Position numbers and translations under genes: made by a program
The notes under the pieces: model-generated
The model's input: only the letters and a program-made list of their open reading frames with translations
What the model was told of the DNA's origin: nothing
Databases searched by the model: none
Assembly: GCA_902798615.1 (NCBI GenBank)
Contig: CADBXL010000002.1
Location: forward strand, 61,644 to 125,643
From: an uncultured Bacteroidales bacterium
GTDB lineage: Bacteria; Bacteroidota; Bacteroidia; Bacteroidales; Bacteroidaceae
DNA length: 64,000 bases
Direction: 5' to 3'
In this document: positions 14,196-58,987 of the stretch, piece by piece
How the letters are laid out: each line of letters begins with the position of its first letter
Position numbering within the stretch: position 1 is the first letter of the stretch

Positions 14196-14420
14196 TCCCC
14201 CCAAACACAGTATGTCAGGAGCCTATTCCCCTACCCTTTTTCCCACTCGTGCCAATTTTCCTCACGTATCATTTTTGGCTTCACCCGATTATTTTACCAC
14301 TTTTTCTTGCCAAATCTTAGTTTTTCCATAATACCATAAACCTTTTTCGCAGTTCCGATGCAAGTCCGATGTAAGTCCGTTGTAAGTCCCATTTTTCAAT
14401 AGGCGAAATATAGGCGCTAG
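14196..14420. repeat. Intergenic repeat unit with 11-bp tandem repeats, copy 1
   Basis: Begins with CCCCCAAACACAGTATGTCAG and ends with four 11-bp units (14350-14390, for example GTAAGTCCGTT) and AATAGGCGAAATA. The beginning and end resemble the segment at 16171-16423, whereas the middle is poorly conserved. No convincing gene is present in 13994-14509. Confidence 0.5.
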
Positions 14421-17425: not shown

Positions 17426-19162
17426 TTACTTTACAATCACTTTCTTTCCGTTCTTGATATGAAGTCCTTTTGTGTCGTTTGGAACTACCTGACCGTTCAC
17501 GCTATAGGTAACGGTTGGTTTATTAGCATCTACGCTTATTCCCTTTATGCCCGTAGTTGCTATGATTTGAGATTCAAGACCTTCATCTACATTCAACTTA
17601 TCGTTGATAACCATATAAAACTCCTTGCTCTTGCCAAAGACTATTGCATCCTTACCATCTTCTATGTCGATAGAAGCAGGTACATCAGAAAGGCGATAAC
17701 CCGTCTTGGCATTTGTCTTGTCAGCCACAAGGAATTTCTTTGCACCAAGATTATACACATAATGCTTGCCGTCAACCTCTGTGGTCATCCAAGTGTTGTT
17801 TTCCTCCGTATCGTCAAGAGCCGTTTCATTCAAGGAGGCTACACAATCATTCACGCTATCATAGAAGAGATACGAACCTTCATTTGAGGACTTCAGGATA
17901 TACGCCTTGCTATTTGTCAGATTGACTGCGTTATATGCCACCTCGCGGATATTGATGAACTGATACCAGTTATGACTATATGCGTATGCATCCCAGCTTC
18001 CTTCAGGAATCATAAGCGTGGTATGGTAATATGACTGACCACTAAAAGCACTACCACCAGAAGGTGGTGTCTTAGCCTTAATTACTATATTTCTGAGTTT
18101 AGCATCAAAGAAAGCCTCTCTTCCAATATTTATCACAGACTCAGGGATGGTGAGGGAGGTAAGACCTGAGCAACCATAGAAAGCACCACCTCCAATACTC
18201 GTCACGGAATTAGGGATGGTGAGAGAGGTAAGACCTGAGCAACCATAGAAAGCGGTCTCTCCTATACTCGTCACGGAATTTGGGATGGTGATAGAGGTAA
18301 GACCTTTGCAGCCATAGAAAGCAGACGCTCCAATACTTGTCACAGAATTAGGGATGGTGACGTAGGTAAGACCCGAGCAATAATTGAAAGTATTATTTCC
18401 AATACTCGTCACAGAATTAGGGATTGTAATGGAGCTAAGACCTATACAACCTGAGAATGCAGCAGCTTCAATACTCGTCACAGAATTTCCGATAGTGACA
18501 GAGGTAAGACCTGAGCAACCAGAGAAAGCAGAGTATCCAATACTTTTCACAGAATTTGGGATGGTGACGGAGGTAAGACCAGAGCAATCGTAGAAAACCC
18601 TATTTTCAATACTCGTCACGGAATTTGGGATGGTGATGGAGGTAATACCTGAGCAGTCTTTGAAAGCAGACTCTTCAATGCTTGTCACAGAATTTGGGAT
18701 GGTGACGGAGGTAAGACCTGAGCAACCAGAGAAAGCACGATATCCAATACTCGTCACGGAATTAGGGATGGTGATGGAGGTAAGACCAGAGCAACCGAAG
18801 AAAGCATCACCTCCAATATACGTCACAGAATTTGGGATGGTGACGGAGGTAAGACCTGAGCAACCAGAGAAAGCAGAGTATCTAATACTTTTCACAGAAT
18901 TTGGGATGGTGACGGAGGTAAGACCTGAGCAACCGAAGAAAGCATCATCTCCAATATTCGTCACACCATTTTTAATTACTACTTTCTTGATTTTATCTCG
19001 TTGAGAATACCAAGGAGAATAGTTTTTATAGTTATCATAGTCAGGCATATTCGCTCCTGATATGGTCAATGTACCATCATCAGACAAAGTCCATGTAATC
19101 TCCGCATGGATTGTTCCAATAGAAAAGACACAGAGGACAATAAGTGTAAAAACCTTTTTCAT
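17426..19162 (-). CDS. BspA-like leucine-rich repeat surface protein
   Basis: Exported protein of 578 aa with a signal peptide (1-20) and 13 TpLRR (LRR_5) repeats of 23 residues between about 65 and 365, of the form IPNSVTSIGxxAFxGCSGLTS. Repeats at DNA level are 69 bp and nearly identical, so copy number can change by recombination. A second domain (about 400-550) and a short tail ending in NGKKVIVK follow; such tails are common on secreted proteins of this group and may be a sorting signal (inference). Family members bind host matrix or other bacteria. The 388-bp upstream region is strongly structured. Confidence 0.93.
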   Translation of the reverse strand: MKKVFTLIVLCVFSIGTIHAEITWTLSDDGTLTISGANMPDYDNYKNYSPWYSQRDKIKKVVIKNGVTNIGDDAFFGCSGLTSVTIPNSVKSIRYSAFSGCSGLTSVTIPNSVTYIGGDAFFGCSGLTSITIPNSVTSIGYRAFSGCSGLTSVTIPNSVTSIEESAFKDCSGITSITIPNSVTSIENRVFYDCSGLTSVTIPNSVKSIGYSAFSGCSGLTSVTIGNSVTSIEAAAFSGCIGLSSITIPNSVTSIGNNTFNYCSGLTYVTIPNSVTSIGASAFYGCKGLTSITIPNSVTSIGETAFYGCSGLTSLTIPNSVTSIGGGAFYGCSGLTSLTIPESVINIGREAFFDAKLRNIVIKAKTPPSGGSAFSGQSYYHTTLMIPEGSWDAYAYSHNWYQFINIREVAYNAVNLTNSKAYILKSSNEGSYLFYDSVNDCVASLNETALDDTEENNTWMTTEVDGKHYVYNLGAKKFLVADKTNAKTGYRLSDVPASIDIEDGKDAIVFGKSKEFYMVINDKLNVDEGLESQIIATTGIKGISVDANKPTVTYSVNGQVVPNDTKGLHIKNGKKVIVK

Positions 19163-29880: not shown

Positions 29881-29909
29881 GTAAACCACGTTTTACTGAC
29901 AAAAAAATA

Positions 29910-29937
29910 AAAGGGCGCCCATCGGTGCCCTTTTTTT
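29910..29937 (+). terminator. Terminator after rplY
   Basis: AAAGGGC/GCCCTTT stem (29910-29916 and 29927-29933) with seven T after it, 30 bp past the rplY stop. Confidence 0.88.
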
Positions 29938-41030: not shown

Positions 41031-41062
41031 TTTGGTTTGCACTCGAAAATTTAGTAACTTTG
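41031..41062 (+). promoter_or_regulatory. Promoter of lysS
   Basis: TTTG (41031-41034), 20 nt, TAACTTTG (41055-41062). Transcription would start near 41069, at the beginning of the first structured repeat, giving a leader of about 170 nt. Confidence 0.82.
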
Positions 41063-41193
41063 CACTCACAAATCAGAGACGGGCACCGCTCTGCGAGCGA
41101 CAAGCCCTATTTGTTTCGTGCGAAGAAGCACTCACAAATCAGAGACGGGCACCGCTCAATGAGCGACAAGCCCTATTTGTTTCGTGCGAAGAA
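41062..41193 (+). ncRNA. Two tandem copies of a structured leader RNA element
   Basis: Exact 66-bp tandem repeat (41062-41127, 41128-41193) that differs only in the apical loop (CTGCGAG versus CAATGAG). Copy 1 folds as P1 ACAAAT/ATTTGT (41068-41073, 41109-41114), P2 GGGC/GCCC (41081-41084, 41104-41107), P3 GCTC/GAGC (41088-41091, 41095-41098), then a small hairpin TTCGTGCGAA (41115-41124). GACAA sits in the 3' internal loop. The same architecture with other base pairs occurs at 54523 and 58752. Because 66 is divisible by 3 the region reads as an open frame into lysS, but promoter position and family length put the LysS start at 41240. Confidence 0.75.
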
Positions 41194-41239
41194 GCACTCA
41201 GAAAAAGAATTATCGATAATTAACAAACAGAATATTCTA

Positions 41240-43024
41240 ATGAACATACTTGAACTTAGTGAGCAGGAGATAGGCAGACGCGAGAGTCTGCAACAGCTTC
41301 GTGACATGGGTATCGAGCCATATCCTGCAGCAGAATACGTGGTTGACGCTTGGAGCGATGACATTCGTGAGAACTTCGTTGACCTCCCAACAGAAAAGGA
41401 TGCAGAGGGCAATGAGGTGCCTGGCACACCAACTCCAGAGAACAGCCGTATGGTTAGCATCGCTGGCCGTATGATGGGCCGCCGTATCATGGGTAAGGCT
41501 GGTTTCGCAGAGCTTCAGGACTCAAAAGGCCGTATTCAGGTCTATGTTAAGCGCGACGAGATTTGCCCTGGAGAGGACAAGGAACTGTATAATACCGTAT
41601 TCAAGAAACTCCTCGACATTGGTGACTTCATCGGCGTTAAGGGTTATGTGTTCCGCACAAAAACAGGCGAGATTTCTGTTCATGCTCAGGAACTTACACT
41701 TCTCTCTAAGTCACTCAAGCCTCTGCCAATCGTAAAGACCGACGCAGACGGCAATGTATATGACAAATTCGACGACCCAGAGCTTCGCTATCGTCAGCGC
41801 TATGTTGACCTTGTAGTGAACGATGGCGTTAAGGAGACCTTCCTCAAGCGTGCAACCATCATCCGCACTATGCGTAACATCCTTGACGGAGCAGGCTATA
41901 CAGAGGTAGATACTCCTATTCTCCAGAACATAGCAGGTGGTGCTTCTGCACGTCCATTCATCACCCATTTCAATGCTCTGAATCAGGATATGTATATGCG
42001 TATCGCAACAGAGCTTTACCTGAAGCGCCTTATCGTAGGTGGTTTCGAGGGTGTTTATGAGATGGGTAAGAACTTCCGTAACGAGGGTATGGACAAGACC
42101 CACAACCCAGAGTTCACATGTATGGAGCTTTACGTATCATACAAGGACCTCAACTGGGGTATGGGCTTCACAGAGAAGATGCTTGAGACTATCTGTACCG
42201 CCGTTAATGGCAAGCCAGAGGTTGAGATTGACGGTAAGGTCATCTCATTCAAGGCTCCATTCCGCCGTCTCCCTATCCTCGATGCTATCAAGGAGAAGAC
42301 CGGCTACGACCTCTATCCTATGAACGAGGATGAGATTCGCGAGGTTGCCAAGAAGCTCGATATTGAGGTTGACGAGACAATGGGTAAGGGTAAGCTCATC
42401 GACGAAATCTTCGGCGAGACATGTGAGGGCACATTCATCCAGCCAACATTCATCACCGACTACCCTGTGGAGATGTCACCATTGACAAAGATGCACCGCT
42501 CAAAGCCAGGATTGACAGAGCGTTTCGAGCTTATGGTAAATGGTAAGGAGCTTGCAAATGCTTATTCAGAGCTTAACGACCCAATAGATCAGGAACAGCG
42601 TTTCATTGACCAGATGAAGCTCGCAGACAAGGGTGACGACGAGGCTATGATCATCGACCACGACTTCCTCCGCGCTCTTCAGTATGGTATGCCTCCTACA
42701 TTCGGTATCGGTATCGGTATTGACCGCCTTGTAATGCTTATGACAGGTAAGTTCGCTATCGGCGAGGTTATGCTCTTCCCACAGATGAAGCCAGAGAAGA
42801 AGGCTCCACGTTCAAGCATCGCAGAGTGGGCTGAGATTGGTGTTTCAGAGGAGTGGGCATACGTTATGCGTAAGGCAGGCTTCAATATGATCACCGACAT
42901 CAAGGATGAGAAGGCTCAGGGTCTTCAGCAGAAGATCGGCGAGATCAACAAGAAGTACAAGCTGGGCTACGAGAAGCCATCACTGGACGAGGTTCAGAGC
43001 TGGATTGATAAGGTGCAGGAGTAA
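41240..43024 (+). CDS. lysS: Lysyl-tRNA synthetase, class II (LysS)
   Basis: Charges tRNA-Lys. N-terminal anticodon-binding OB fold (about 60-165, with RIMGKAGFAELQDSKGRIQVY) and class II catalytic domain (about 185-515): FRNEGMDKTHNPEFT is motif 2 and GIGIGIDRLVML motif 3. The 594-aa protein has about 75 residues beyond the E. coli end (PEKKAPRSSIAEW... to the stop), as in other Bacteroidetes. The start MNILELSEQEIG fits family members; leader carries tandem RNA elements. Confidence 0.95.
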   Translation: MNILELSEQEIGRRESLQQLRDMGIEPYPAAEYVVDAWSDDIRENFVDLPTEKDAEGNEVPGTPTPENSRMVSIAGRMMGRRIMGKAGFAELQDSKGRIQVYVKRDEICPGEDKELYNTVFKKLLDIGDFIGVKGYVFRTKTGEISVHAQELTLLSKSLKPLPIVKTDADGNVYDKFDDPELRYRQRYVDLVVNDGVKETFLKRATIIRTMRNILDGAGYTEVDTPILQNIAGGASARPFITHFNALNQDMYMRIATELYLKRLIVGGFEGVYEMGKNFRNEGMDKTHNPEFTCMELYVSYKDLNWGMGFTEKMLETICTAVNGKPEVEIDGKVISFKAPFRRLPILDAIKEKTGYDLYPMNEDEIREVAKKLDIEVDETMGKGKLIDEIFGETCEGTFIQPTFITDYPVEMSPLTKMHRSKPGLTERFELMVNGKELANAYSELNDPIDQEQRFIDQMKLADKGDDEAMIIDHDFLRALQYGMPPTFGIGIGIDRLVMLMTGKFAIGEVMLFPQMKPEKKAPRSSIAEWAEIGVSEEWAYVMRKAGFNMITDIKDEKAQGLQQKIGEINKKYKLGYEKPSLDEVQSWIDKVQE

Positions 43025-53705: not shown

Positions 53706-54488
53706 TTAGTGATACCTCAACGGATTGGTCTGTGTCTCAGCAATATAGCATTCCACTCCAGCGCAATCACGTTCTATAATCCGTTTCAGCAGATGCTGCG
53801 TAAACTGTTCACTCTCATAGTGCCCGATTACCGCAAGCTGAATATTATCATGGTCGAAATACTGATGATAGTGCATCTCACCTGTGATGAAAGCATCCGC
53901 ACCAGCCTTCTCTGCCGAACTGATGGCACAATCGCCGGCACCGCCCATAACGGCAACATGACGTATAGGACGCTTGATAAGCGGATTTGTAATCACACAA
54001 CCGCAGTTGAATGTCTTCTTTACAAGCTCAACAAACTGCTCTGCACTAATCTCTGAAGGCAATTCTCCAATAGTTCCCATGCCATACTCCACACCGTTCA
54101 TCTGCTGCGGATTGAGGAAACCAATGTTCTTGAGCCCAAGTCGTTTTGCAATCTCATGATTCACACCGCCAAGAGCAGAATCAAGATTTGTGTGCATTGA
54201 TATAATGGTGATATCATTCTTTATCGCCAATATCACCGCACGCTGAACCATATCAGTACCAGACACTTGCGCAAGTTTTCGGAAGATAAGAGGATGATGG
54301 GAAACAATCAGATTGCATCCCTTCGCCATTGCTTCGCGAACGATTTCCTCGGTCACGTCAAGGCACAATAAAGCCCCTGAAACTTCCGCCTCCGTCAATC
54401 CAACTTGCAAGCCGGCATTGTCCCAGTCTTCCTGCAAGGGCAGAGGCGCGAAACGCTCAAGGGCATCATATACTTCCTTAATTTTCAC
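53706..54488 (-). CDS. Nif3-like dinuclear metal-centre protein
   Basis: 260 aa, Nif3/YbgI family, hexameric with a two-metal site. Metal-binding pattern seen: VSHHPLIF (about 63-70), HTNLDSALGGVNH (about 99-111), GEMHYHQYFDHDN and GHYESEQ near the C-terminus. GTP cyclohydrolase-I type 2 activity has been proposed for relatives, but the role is unclear. Its leader holds one copy of the structured RNA element. Confidence 0.93.
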   Translation of the reverse strand: MKIKEVYDALERFAPLPLQEDWDNAGLQVGLTEAEVSGALLCLDVTEEIVREAMAKGCNLIVSHHPLIFRKLAQVSGTDMVQRAVILAIKNDITIISMHTNLDSALGGVNHEIAKRLGLKNIGFLNPQQMNGVEYGMGTIGELPSEISAEQFVELVKKTFNCGCVITNPLIKRPIRHVAVMGGAGDCAISSAEKAGADAFITGEMHYHQYFDHDNIQLAVIGHYESEQFTQHLLKRIIERDCAGVECYIAETQTNPLRYH

Positions 54489-54522: not shown

Positions 54523-54586
54523 CTTCGCACGAAGAAAATAGTGCGTGTCAGTCCTCAAAAAACTGGCGCACGTTTACAATTTTCGA
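54523..54586 (-). ncRNA. Structured leader RNA element, single copy before nif3
   Basis: Minus strand, directly after the -7 box. P1 GAAAAT/ATTTTC (54584-54579 with 54539-54534), P2 GTGCG/CGCAC (54571-54567 with 54545-54541), P3 CAGT/ACTG (54565-54562 region with 54552-54549), then hairpin TTCGTGCGAA (54533-54524). GACA lies in the 3' internal loop. Compared with the lysS copies all three stems have different bases but still pair. Confidence 0.72.
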
Positions 54587-54589
54587 GTG

Positions 54590-54597
54590 CAAAGTTA
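54590..54597 (-). promoter_or_regulatory. Putative promoter of nif3
   Basis: TAACTTTG on the minus strand, immediately followed by GCACTCGAAAAT, the same junction as at lysS (TAACTTTGCACTC). Confidence 0.65.
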
Positions 54598-57758: not shown

Positions 57759-58721
57759 TTAGGCTTCTAACACCGCCTTTATATTCTTCTCCATCTGCTC
57801 CACCTTGCTCACACCAACGAGAACGGAGGTAGTACCACGCTGATTGAGAATCCATTGCAAGGCAGCATCTGATAGCGACTGCCCATTCTTCTGAGCCTCA
57901 TCCGACATATCGCGGAGCTTGGCAAGAAGCTCTGGCGTAAGGTTCTCTGGACGAAGGAACTGACTATGCGTCATTCTCGAATCATCGGGAATACCATTGA
58001 GATAACGGTCGGTGAGAAGTCCCTGTGCAAGTGGCGAGAAAGATATGAATCCAATGCCGTTTTCTGCACAATAGTCGAGTACACCATTATCTAAAGGCTC
58101 ATGCACTATGAGGTTCAGCTTATCCTGATAGATGAGCAATGGCACATCACGCGCAGCAAGATATTCCTTCGCCGTCTTCAGAGCCTCAAGAGGCCAACGT
58201 GAAATGCCCACATATAGAGCCTTACCCTGTTTCACGATATCCACAAGTGCCTGAAGTGTCTCCTCAAGAGGCGTAACAGGATCATAGCGATGACTGTAGA
58301 AAAGGTCAACATAATCCAGTTTCATACGCTTCAAGCTCTGCTCCAGACTCGCAAACAGATACTTCCTTGAACCCCAGTCGCCATAAGGACCGGGCCACAT
58401 ATCATATCCAGCCTTTGTAGCAATGAACAGCTCATCACGGTAAGGACGGAAATCCTCATCCATAAGTCGGCCGAGAGTCTCTTCTGCCGCCCCGTAAGGA
58501 GGTCCGTAGTTATTTGCAAGGTCAAAATGCGTCACACCATGATCAAAGGCATAATGCGTTATGGCACGGCTACGCTGATACGCATCGGCATCGCCGAAGT
58601 TATGCCAGAAGCCGAGGCTTACCTTTGGCAACATCACTCCTGAACGCCCACAGCGACGATACATCTTGTCCTGATTATCATATCGCTGCGCATCTGCAAT
58701 ATATGGTTCTCTAAGTATCAT
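57759..58721 (-). CDS. Aldo/keto reductase (YghZ/L-glyceraldehyde 3-phosphate reductase-like)
   Basis: NADPH-dependent reductase with a TIM barrel, 320 aa. GVTHFDLANNYGPPYGAAEE (Asp and Tyr of the tetrad, about 62-81; shown at the 20-residue limit), IATKAGYDMWPGPYGDWGS (Lys), DYVDLFYSHRYDP (His) and the cofactor region LVGVSKVEQMEKN are present; GPYGDWGSRKYL is typical of the YghZ branch. The end of the gene lies in a dispersed repeat, and its leader has three structured RNA copies. Confidence 0.93.
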   Translation of the reverse strand: MILREPYIADAQRYDNQDKMYRRCGRSGVMLPKVSLGFWHNFGDADAYQRSRAITHYAFDHGVTHFDLANNYGPPYGAAEETLGRLMDEDFRPYRDELFIATKAGYDMWPGPYGDWGSRKYLFASLEQSLKRMKLDYVDLFYSHRYDPVTPLEETLQALVDIVKQGKALYVGISRWPLEALKTAKEYLAARDVPLLIYQDKLNLIVHEPLDNGVLDYCAENGIGFISFSPLAQGLLTDRYLNGIPDDSRMTHSQFLRPENLTPELLAKLRDMSDEAQKNGQSLSDAALQWILNQRGTTSVLVGVSKVEQMEKNIKAVLEA

Positions 58722-58751
58722 TTATTAGTTTTTAGGTAAATCGACAACTTT

Positions 58752-58980
58752 TTCGTTCGAAGACTTGCATAGCTTGATGAGCCACAGCGAATAAAATAGT
58801 GCATGTCCGCCCAAAGCTAGCGCACGTTTTCAATTTTCGAGAGCTTTTTCGTTCGAAGAAAATAGTGCACGTCAGCACATAGCTGGCGCACGTTTTCAAT
58901 TTTCGAGAGCGAGCTTTTTCGTTCGAAGAAAATAGTGCACGTCAGCACATAGCTGGCGCACGTTTTCAATTTTCGAGAGC
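58752..58980 (-). ncRNA. Three tandem copies of the structured leader RNA element
   Basis: Minus strand between the -7 box at 58980-58987 and the reductase gene. Copies A (58918-58980) and B (58848-58910) are identical over about 63 bp with a 70-bp period: P1 GAAAAT/ATTTTC, P2 GTGC(G)/(U)GCAC, P3 CAGC/GCTG, hairpin TTCGAACGAA. Copy C (58752-58844) keeps P1 and P2 but has a changed P3 and an extra 30-nt piece before TTCGAACGAA; that piece recurs at 63394-63432. Leader length would be about 250 nt. Confidence 0.72.
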
Positions 58981-58987
58981 AAAGATA
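58980..58987 (-). promoter_or_regulatory. Putative promoter of the aldo/keto reductase
   Basis: TATCTTTG on the minus strand, directly followed by GCTCTCGAAAAT, the start of RNA copy A. TTTG lies 18 nt upstream at 59006-59009. Confidence 0.65.

Follow-up and report, generated by a model that had tools for sequence, protein, structure and literature searches.

The leader of lysS in this uncultured Bacteroidales genome carries a tandem repeat that starts within the promoter and folds into nested stems. Is the repeat a structured RNA selected for what it does in the transcript, or is it a DNA sequence that has come to lie at the start of the transcript? The second answer is probably correct: the copies in the leader would form an array of a palindromic DNA element, about 66-84 bp long, that is dispersed and non-autonomous and whose point of insertion is the -7/+1 junction. 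The dispersal of this element, its promoter position, its filled and empty sites, the exchange of its subfamilies and the reach of its arms into the promoter were all read from sequence comparison.

The array in the lysS leader

The gene lysS, encoding lysine--tRNA ligase, occupies 41240..43024 on the plus strand (TIGR00499, 591 bits) of the window, by which we mean the whole stretch of 64,000 nucleotides analysed. Its -7 box, TAACTTTG, lies at 41055..41062 and a TTTG at 41031-41034 is a candidate for the -33 element, both being read against the consensus TAnnTTTG / TTTG given in excerpts of PMC7366714. The hexamer GCACTC at 41062..41067 consists of the last base of the -7 box and the discriminator. 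Judging from the box position in excerpts of PMC9723704 and from the purine count given below, transcription would start near 41067/41068. The core of copy 1, comprising stems P1, P2 and P3, follows at 41068..41114 (E 1.3e-12), then the tail TTCGTGCGAAGAA with a second GCACTC at 41115..41133, the core of copy 2 at 41134..41180 (E 5.3e-13) and the tail of copy 2 with a third GCACTC at 41181..41199. Both cores were seeds of the covariance model used to score them. The 40 bases before the ATG, 41200-41239, are the native lysS leader as identified from the leader of relatives.

As a tandem repeat, the array has a 66 bp unit present in 2.2 copies (41062-41204). Each unit reads GCACTC, arm X (ACAAAT), inner stems P2 and P3, arm X' (ATTTGT), tail TTCGTGCGAAGAA and the next GCACTC, with ACA on the 3' side of P3. 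The first-pass annotation had described an exact 66-bp tandem starting from the -7 box. The start does coincide with the last base of the box, but the repeat is only nearly exact, three neighbouring bases being TGC in one copy and AAT in the other. These bases lie in the apical loop, to which the differences between the copies are confined as had been stated, and the stems described for the two copies agreed with a re-reading of the sequence.

Related copies in the window

Family membership was scored with a covariance model, R1, of the 47-nt core, built from 11 copies. The proposal that six copies in the window form one family was borne out by R1, which was seeded in part by four of the six and finds all of them with E values from 5e-13 to 1e-6. 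The related loci that had been placed near 54523 and 58918 are real members of the family, lying on the minus strand. A single unit precedes the gene for a Nif3-like protein (53706..54488, minus strand; TIGR00486, 191 bits): the -7 box TAACTTTG at 54590..54597 is followed by CACTC, the core, a model seed, spans 54534..54584 (E 6.5e-12) and the tail TTCGTGCGAA spans 54524-54533. Three tandem units precede an aldo-keto-reductase-type gene (57759..58721, minus strand; NF007388, 380 bits, below the cut-off of 448). Here the -7 box TATCTTTG at 58980..58987 is followed by CTCTC, and the cores lie at 58928..58974 (E 1.7e-10; its sequence is a model seed), 58858..58904 (E 1.7e-10; identical in core sequence to the first) and 58792..58838 (E 1.1e-6; with a variant tail). 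A variant tail module of GCTGTGGCTCATCAAGCTATGCAAGTC type takes the place of the usual tail at 58745-58790 (minus) and in L043, L049, L051 and L063, and another tail insert, a TCCGATGTT..AACATCGGA palindrome, was seen in L050, L166 and L181.

One further weak match to the model, at 29900-29937 (E 0.006), looks like a common terminator, a hairpin followed by a run of T. The motif TTCGTGCGAA has 10 sites in the window at no more than one mismatch, the mean of shuffled sequences being 4.0 and 10 being reached in 2 of 100 shuffles; on its own it is weak evidence. The family had been said to resemble no named motif, and there were no Rfam matches at gathering score across the whole window or at four further loci. 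At E<=10 the lysS stretch gave only a chance snoRNA match (E 6.5) on the opposite strand, and in L012 and L181 the only matches were to the adjacent RNase P RNA (RF00010) and not to the element.

Repeats of other kinds were also seen in the window. A 69-bp repeat is present in 12 tandem copies at 18122-18965 and, 69 being a multiple of three, may encode a repeat protein. Several short arrays of tandem repeats, each with a period of 11 bp but with differing units, lie at 14354, 16350, 31295, 40776, 40817 and 55436.

Copies at promoters throughout the genome

The genome (3.46 Mb) contains at least 79 R1 matches at E<=1 among the best 150 of 737 candidates scored, and the weakest of these (E up to 0.76) may be chance. 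Seven of 86 match rows, duplicates from overlapping loci, were removed before arrays and promoters were counted. The 79 matches form 62 arrays, of which 47 are single, 13 double and 2 triple. A TAnnTTTG box is found upstream of 59 of the 62, at 5-7 nt in 58 cases and at 11 nt in one, compared with 1.5% of random positions; R1 itself contains no promoter bases, and 10 of its 11 seed cores come from loci with the promoter pattern that was scanned for. For other species, where 76 copies were used with one left out as identical, and one array too close to the end of its locus was left out of the promoter count, the box lies within 24 nt of 54 of 58 arrays (53 at 4-8 nt, one at 13 nt; random positions 1.4%). 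The four arrays lacking a box, all in the same-genus genome G001, appear to be later units of arrays in which the first unit escaped detection. Of 113 copies, 80 have GCACTC as the hexamer following the box, and 109 have a purine at the sixth position past TTTG. As the first-pass annotation had it, the copies lie at promoters and not mostly inside genes, nearly all arrays being in leaders and in the transcribed orientation.

The excerpts consulted place TAnnTTTG at -12 to -5 from start mapping in a flavobacterium (PMC9723704) and centre the motif at -7 in B. thetaiotaomicron (PMC7366714). GCAC would occupy -5 to -2 under the first placement. Under the second its last base adjoins the start and is therefore the least certain of the four.

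Family searches identified lysS, the Nif3-like gene and atpD behind copies in this genome, and ARAGORN identified tRNA-Thr. Reading of translations added hisG-, enolase-, pyruvate-kinase- and carB-like genes, transporters and lipoproteins. The genes downstream of the copies are unrelated and form no coherent set.

Could the repeats be transcription attenuators or terminators located at promoters? The T-rich arm X' does follow the inner hairpin, and in 137 of 153 distinct copies the longest T run there measures 3-5. However, an A interrupts the T run of the arm in many copies, and a terminator scan gave nothing at the lysS units and nothing on the coding strand of the other two arrays in the window, a single match there being on the opposite strand. 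The genes concerned also include lysS and atpD, both needing steady expression, and this explanation appears very improbable.

The sequence TANNTTTGCACTC occurs 133 times in this genome and 74 times in G001, with 4-30 occurrences in 51 of 58 other genomes and 31-66 in the other seven. By eye, 14 of the first 30 sites in this genome carry the element or a remnant of it, and the element-free sites may be footprints of lost copies or may reflect a local preference for start sites. TTTGCACTC lacking a recognisable element is commoner here than in most relatives, and a DNA element accounts for this only partly. A general habit of hairpin formation at TTTGCACTC promoters was considered and rejected, as 30 sites from G058 and G061 (15 of 66 and 15 of 45) had no R1 match.

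Occurrence in related genomes

A first search of relatives at E<=0.01 gave 69 matches in this genome, 11 in G001 and none in 22 other genomes of the same genus or in 16 genomes of other families. An exact-pattern scan of genome contigs, the pattern representing one subfamily, found 47 stretches, all in five MAGs of close relatives whose LysS is 98-100% identical to that encoded here. R1 copies in these five numbered at least 68, 52, 32, 56 and 57 when the best candidates, up to 150 per genome, were scored. In seven more genomes of the genus, two of them shared with the first search, no copy was found among the best candidates, up to 150 in each. Apart from the five close relatives and G001, the same-genus genomes searched in which the family was absent total 27; the family does not extend beyond a small group of close relatives.

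Filled, empty and exchanged sites

Orthologous loci were tabulated as 36 BLAST pairs covering 22 of the 62 arrays, a few of which are not true leader pairs. Most of these loci were fetched for carrying the element and the table therefore gives no presence rates. The loci looked up regardless of the element were lysS and atpD, in chosen genomes, with AtpD found in 9 of 12. Less close members of the genus provided 29 lysS loci, two of them unreadable at the leader, and all 27 readable leaders lack the element. Among these is the leader of G001, a genome which has the family elsewhere. In the five close relatives the lysS leader holds one identical single copy, one diverged copy with a compensated P2 pair (GGGC/GCCC changed to GGGA/TCCC), one copy lacking the core, one different subfamily and, in the remaining case, no copy but another palindrome in its place. 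In the sister lysS leaders L192, L193 and L196 an unrelated palindrome of AAACGCAAAGAC..GTCTTTGCGTT type lies between the element and the native leader, and L195 has yet another palindrome at about +7.

At atpD, the leader lacks the element in CACYXI and in five less close genomes and contains it in this genome, CAMJKP, CAMKEM and CADCHG, with two subfamilies represented (CAMKEM and CADCHG by eye). In L288 and L292 the GTGCTCC-subfamily copies were recognised by eye and not by R1. The tRNA-Thr site is filled in this genome and empty in CAMKEM, and the element precedes the RNase P RNA gene (RF00010) in CACYXI but not in this genome (by eye). In the CACYXI locus, L181, the element is directly 5' of the RNase P RNA gene so that the precursor would carry the hairpin. 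Different subfamilies occupy one and the same promoter in sister species at lysS, pyk and atpD. On comparison of these orthologous leaders, filled and empty sites together with subfamily swaps show insertion and turnover. A strongly changed hairpin was also seen in L012 of this genome, at another promoter which is filled by a typical unit in CAMJKP (L177) and CACYXI (L181), and may be a decayed or remodelled unit. At the tRNA-Thr and RNase P RNA sites the hexamer on the left is the one typical of the element, and the native hexamer is found at the right end; the element therefore seems to carry its own discriminator.

Units might instead have arisen only by slippage and gene conversion between promoter repeats, as a minisatellite, with no step resembling transposition. 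Tandem units are indeed common (15 of the 62 arrays), subfamilies swap at single promoters, and direct repeats flanking the units range from a few bases to about 20 nt, with about 19 nt reached in L094, L056 and L150. Against this, new promoters have been filled at atpD, RNase P RNA and tRNA-Thr although the empty site has only a few bases of homology, and we consider a pure minisatellite rather improbable.

Pairing of the arms in RNA or in DNA

The first-pass annotation had taken two-sided changes that keep the stems paired as an argument for a selected RNA, and had named absence of covariation, copies inside genes or away from promoters, and a match to Rfam as findings that would speak against its proposal. 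None of these was observed. Covariation is strong on two alignments, both of which were fitted to the structure: the score is 0.439 for copies of this genome (slid structures at most 0.083, shuffles 0.139) and 0.300 for other species (slid structures at most 0.066, shuffles 0.098). Such values would suit a selected family of leader RNAs, in which a 5' hairpin starting near +1 would shield the transcript or serve as a binding site for a protein or ligand, useful copies being spread by recombination. The location of nearly all arrays in leaders, in the transcribed orientation, would suit it too. Some changes between orthologues are compensated, as in lysS P2 above and between L080 and L247, and compensated pairs between orthologues are equally expected from selection on RNA.

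In RNA stems, G:U pairs are expected to outnumber A:C mismatches. With a parser neutral to both, stem-internal mismatches in 144 distinct copies (two unparsed) came to 40 A:C and 17 G:U cells. As distinct events there were 22 A:C and 16 G:U, and 16 of 38 is not different from half (p 0.42). The control, 21 distinct tRNA genes from the same loci, had 1 A:C and 11 G:U (Fisher p 0.003 against the element). On the fitted alignments, where some subfamilies are not correctly aligned, a less refined count came to 48 G:U and 40 A:C. A preference for G:U over A:C was therefore not found in the stems of the element. The start of the transcript was no better paired than chance either, positions +1 to +6 having a predicted pairing of 0.424 in a 75-nt span compared with 0.412 for shuffled sequences (113 copies). 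When the core was folded alone, the first base was predicted to pair in 47 of 110 copies, which counts against the DNA interpretation.

The tail was readable in 90 of the 113 copies and the other 23 were left out of the comparison of tail with upstream sequence. GCAC upstream was combined with GTGC in the tail in 63 copies and with ATGC in 9, while GCAT was combined with GTGC in 1 and with ATGC in 8 (Fisher p 6e-6). Exact upstream-tail matches numbered 72 of 90, where permutation expects 58.3 and reached at most 68 in 2000 trials. The copies are not independent, so these p values are too small, and two pairs among the eight GCAT/ATGC copies look orthologous (L067/L191 from the BLAST pairs, L082/L178 from their flanks), which reduces the independent cases to about six. 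As a copy of the hexamer often lies downstream as well and could pair with the tail in RNA, the cases were split by side: 20 tails match upstream only, 6 downstream only (next 40 nt), 52 both and 12 neither. The nine ATGC tails which face an upstream GCAC, and the six tails which match downstream only, count against a match between DNA arms. The complementarity nevertheless crosses the inferred start into promoter DNA.

The above results indicate that a DNA palindrome fits better than an RNA, given the narrow distribution, the turnover, the unrelated genes, the lack of G:U preference and the arms that cross the start. We favour the interpretation that the palindrome works, or is maintained, as DNA, and the hairpin may still affect the RNA in which it ends up. 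With tRNA and RNase P RNA among the genes concerned, and with the family absent from the 27 other genomes of the genus searched, a selected leader RNA seems unlikely to us. A conserved regulatory RNA deduced from covariation alone was rejected as the main explanation, since the mismatch types, the pairing at the start and the upstream-tail covariation speak against it. The covariation reported by the first-pass annotation stands, but the argument from it to a selected RNA is not supported. Strong covariation in leaders can stem from DNA palindromes, which is a caution for RNA calls, and a count of G:U against A:C together with a check across the start site can tell the two apart.

A proposed scheme for insertion

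In this scheme, the DNA element would enter in a single orientation at the 3' border of the -7 box, a site at which the DNA is melted by RNA polymerase. It would supply the discriminator (usually CACTC) and the first transcribed bases, and the native discriminator and leader would be displaced downstream. The left arm TTTGCAC-TC-X is complementary to the right arm X'-TTC-GTGCGAA across the inferred start site, around the inner hairpin, and the direct GCACTC repeats at both ends would permit gain or loss of tandem units by recombination. Insertion may take place in the open complex, where a putative enzyme would cut and join single-stranded DNA, and the leader hairpin is probably a by-product for most genes.

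The position, the single orientation, the GCACTC target on the left and the GCACTC at the right end recall single-strand transposition, and the target would fall within the melted strand of the open complex. We put forward only tentatively the possibility that a mobile element targets the open complex of RNA polymerase, a single-strand-specific enzyme inserting the hairpin into active promoters where the -7/+1 junction is melted. If this were so, each promoter would gain a new discriminator, start base and leader without being broken.

Several routes were considered and rejected. A Y1 transposase as the mover finds no support, as the two Y1 genes of this genome have unrelated flanks and the presence of Y1 is uncorrelated with the element: G076 has 68 copies yet no Y1 match, and five of six genomes in which the second search gave no copy do have one. 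That no mobilising gene was found counts against the DNA element. Copying of P1 from the native leader, suggested by the flanking direct repeats, disagrees with CACYXI lysS, where P1 (GCAATA/TATTGC) differs from the native start after it. RNA-mediated copying is unlikely because, at tRNA-Thr and RNase P RNA, the element-type hexamer is the left one, which is probably untranscribed, and the native hexamer is the one at the right end.

A repeat family of this kind would reshape, within a single lineage, the starts of dozens of transcripts, and at a nearly base-precise position. The transcripts affected include those of lysS and atpD and, from reading of translations, those of enolase and pyruvate kinase. 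The element would offer a test case for insertion guided by the initiation of transcription.

Comparison with known systems

Single-strand transposition as in the IS200/IS605 family would explain a fixed short target to the left of a hairpin, a single orientation and the use of single-stranded DNA. The element differs in having no associated transposase, and the two transposases present in its own genome have other flanks. This comparison also leans on excerpts of PMC6006769.

Riboswitches, ribosomal leaders and the leader RNAs of Rfam resemble the element in lying in leaders and in having covarying stems. They differ from it in that the element has no Rfam match and no coherent gene set and shows a mismatch pattern of DNA type. 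No description of the element or of such promoter targeting was found among the matches listed for the open-licence literature searched, and nothing recognisable as the element appears in the portion consulted of the text of a human-microbiome RNA survey (PMC8040213).

REP sequences and REPINs with their RAYT (TnpA_REP), as described in excerpts of PMC3733652, PMC8266576, PMC6006769 and PMC3116915, are short, high-copy, imperfect intergenic palindromes bound to a lineage. Their mobility is attributed to a separate gene whose product acts on hairpins of single-stranded DNA, and the element would likewise be non-autonomous. As a high-copy, lineage-bound imperfect palindrome the element shares this trait with them. 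However, it is a longer composite unit, lies strictly at the -7/+1 junction and lacks a RAYT with copies on its flanks. In the 8 nt adjoining the core ends, 0 of 153 distinct copies have GTAG, 4 have its complement CTAC on the 3' side and 12 have CGTC, which falls short of a REP tag.

MITEs, for example the minisatellite-bearing MITE of Porphyromonas gingivalis from a related order (excerpts of PMC4596501), are also small, non-autonomous and palindromic with tandem units. The element shares with them insertion as evidenced by empty sites, and is set apart from them by inserting at one position of the promoter and in one orientation.
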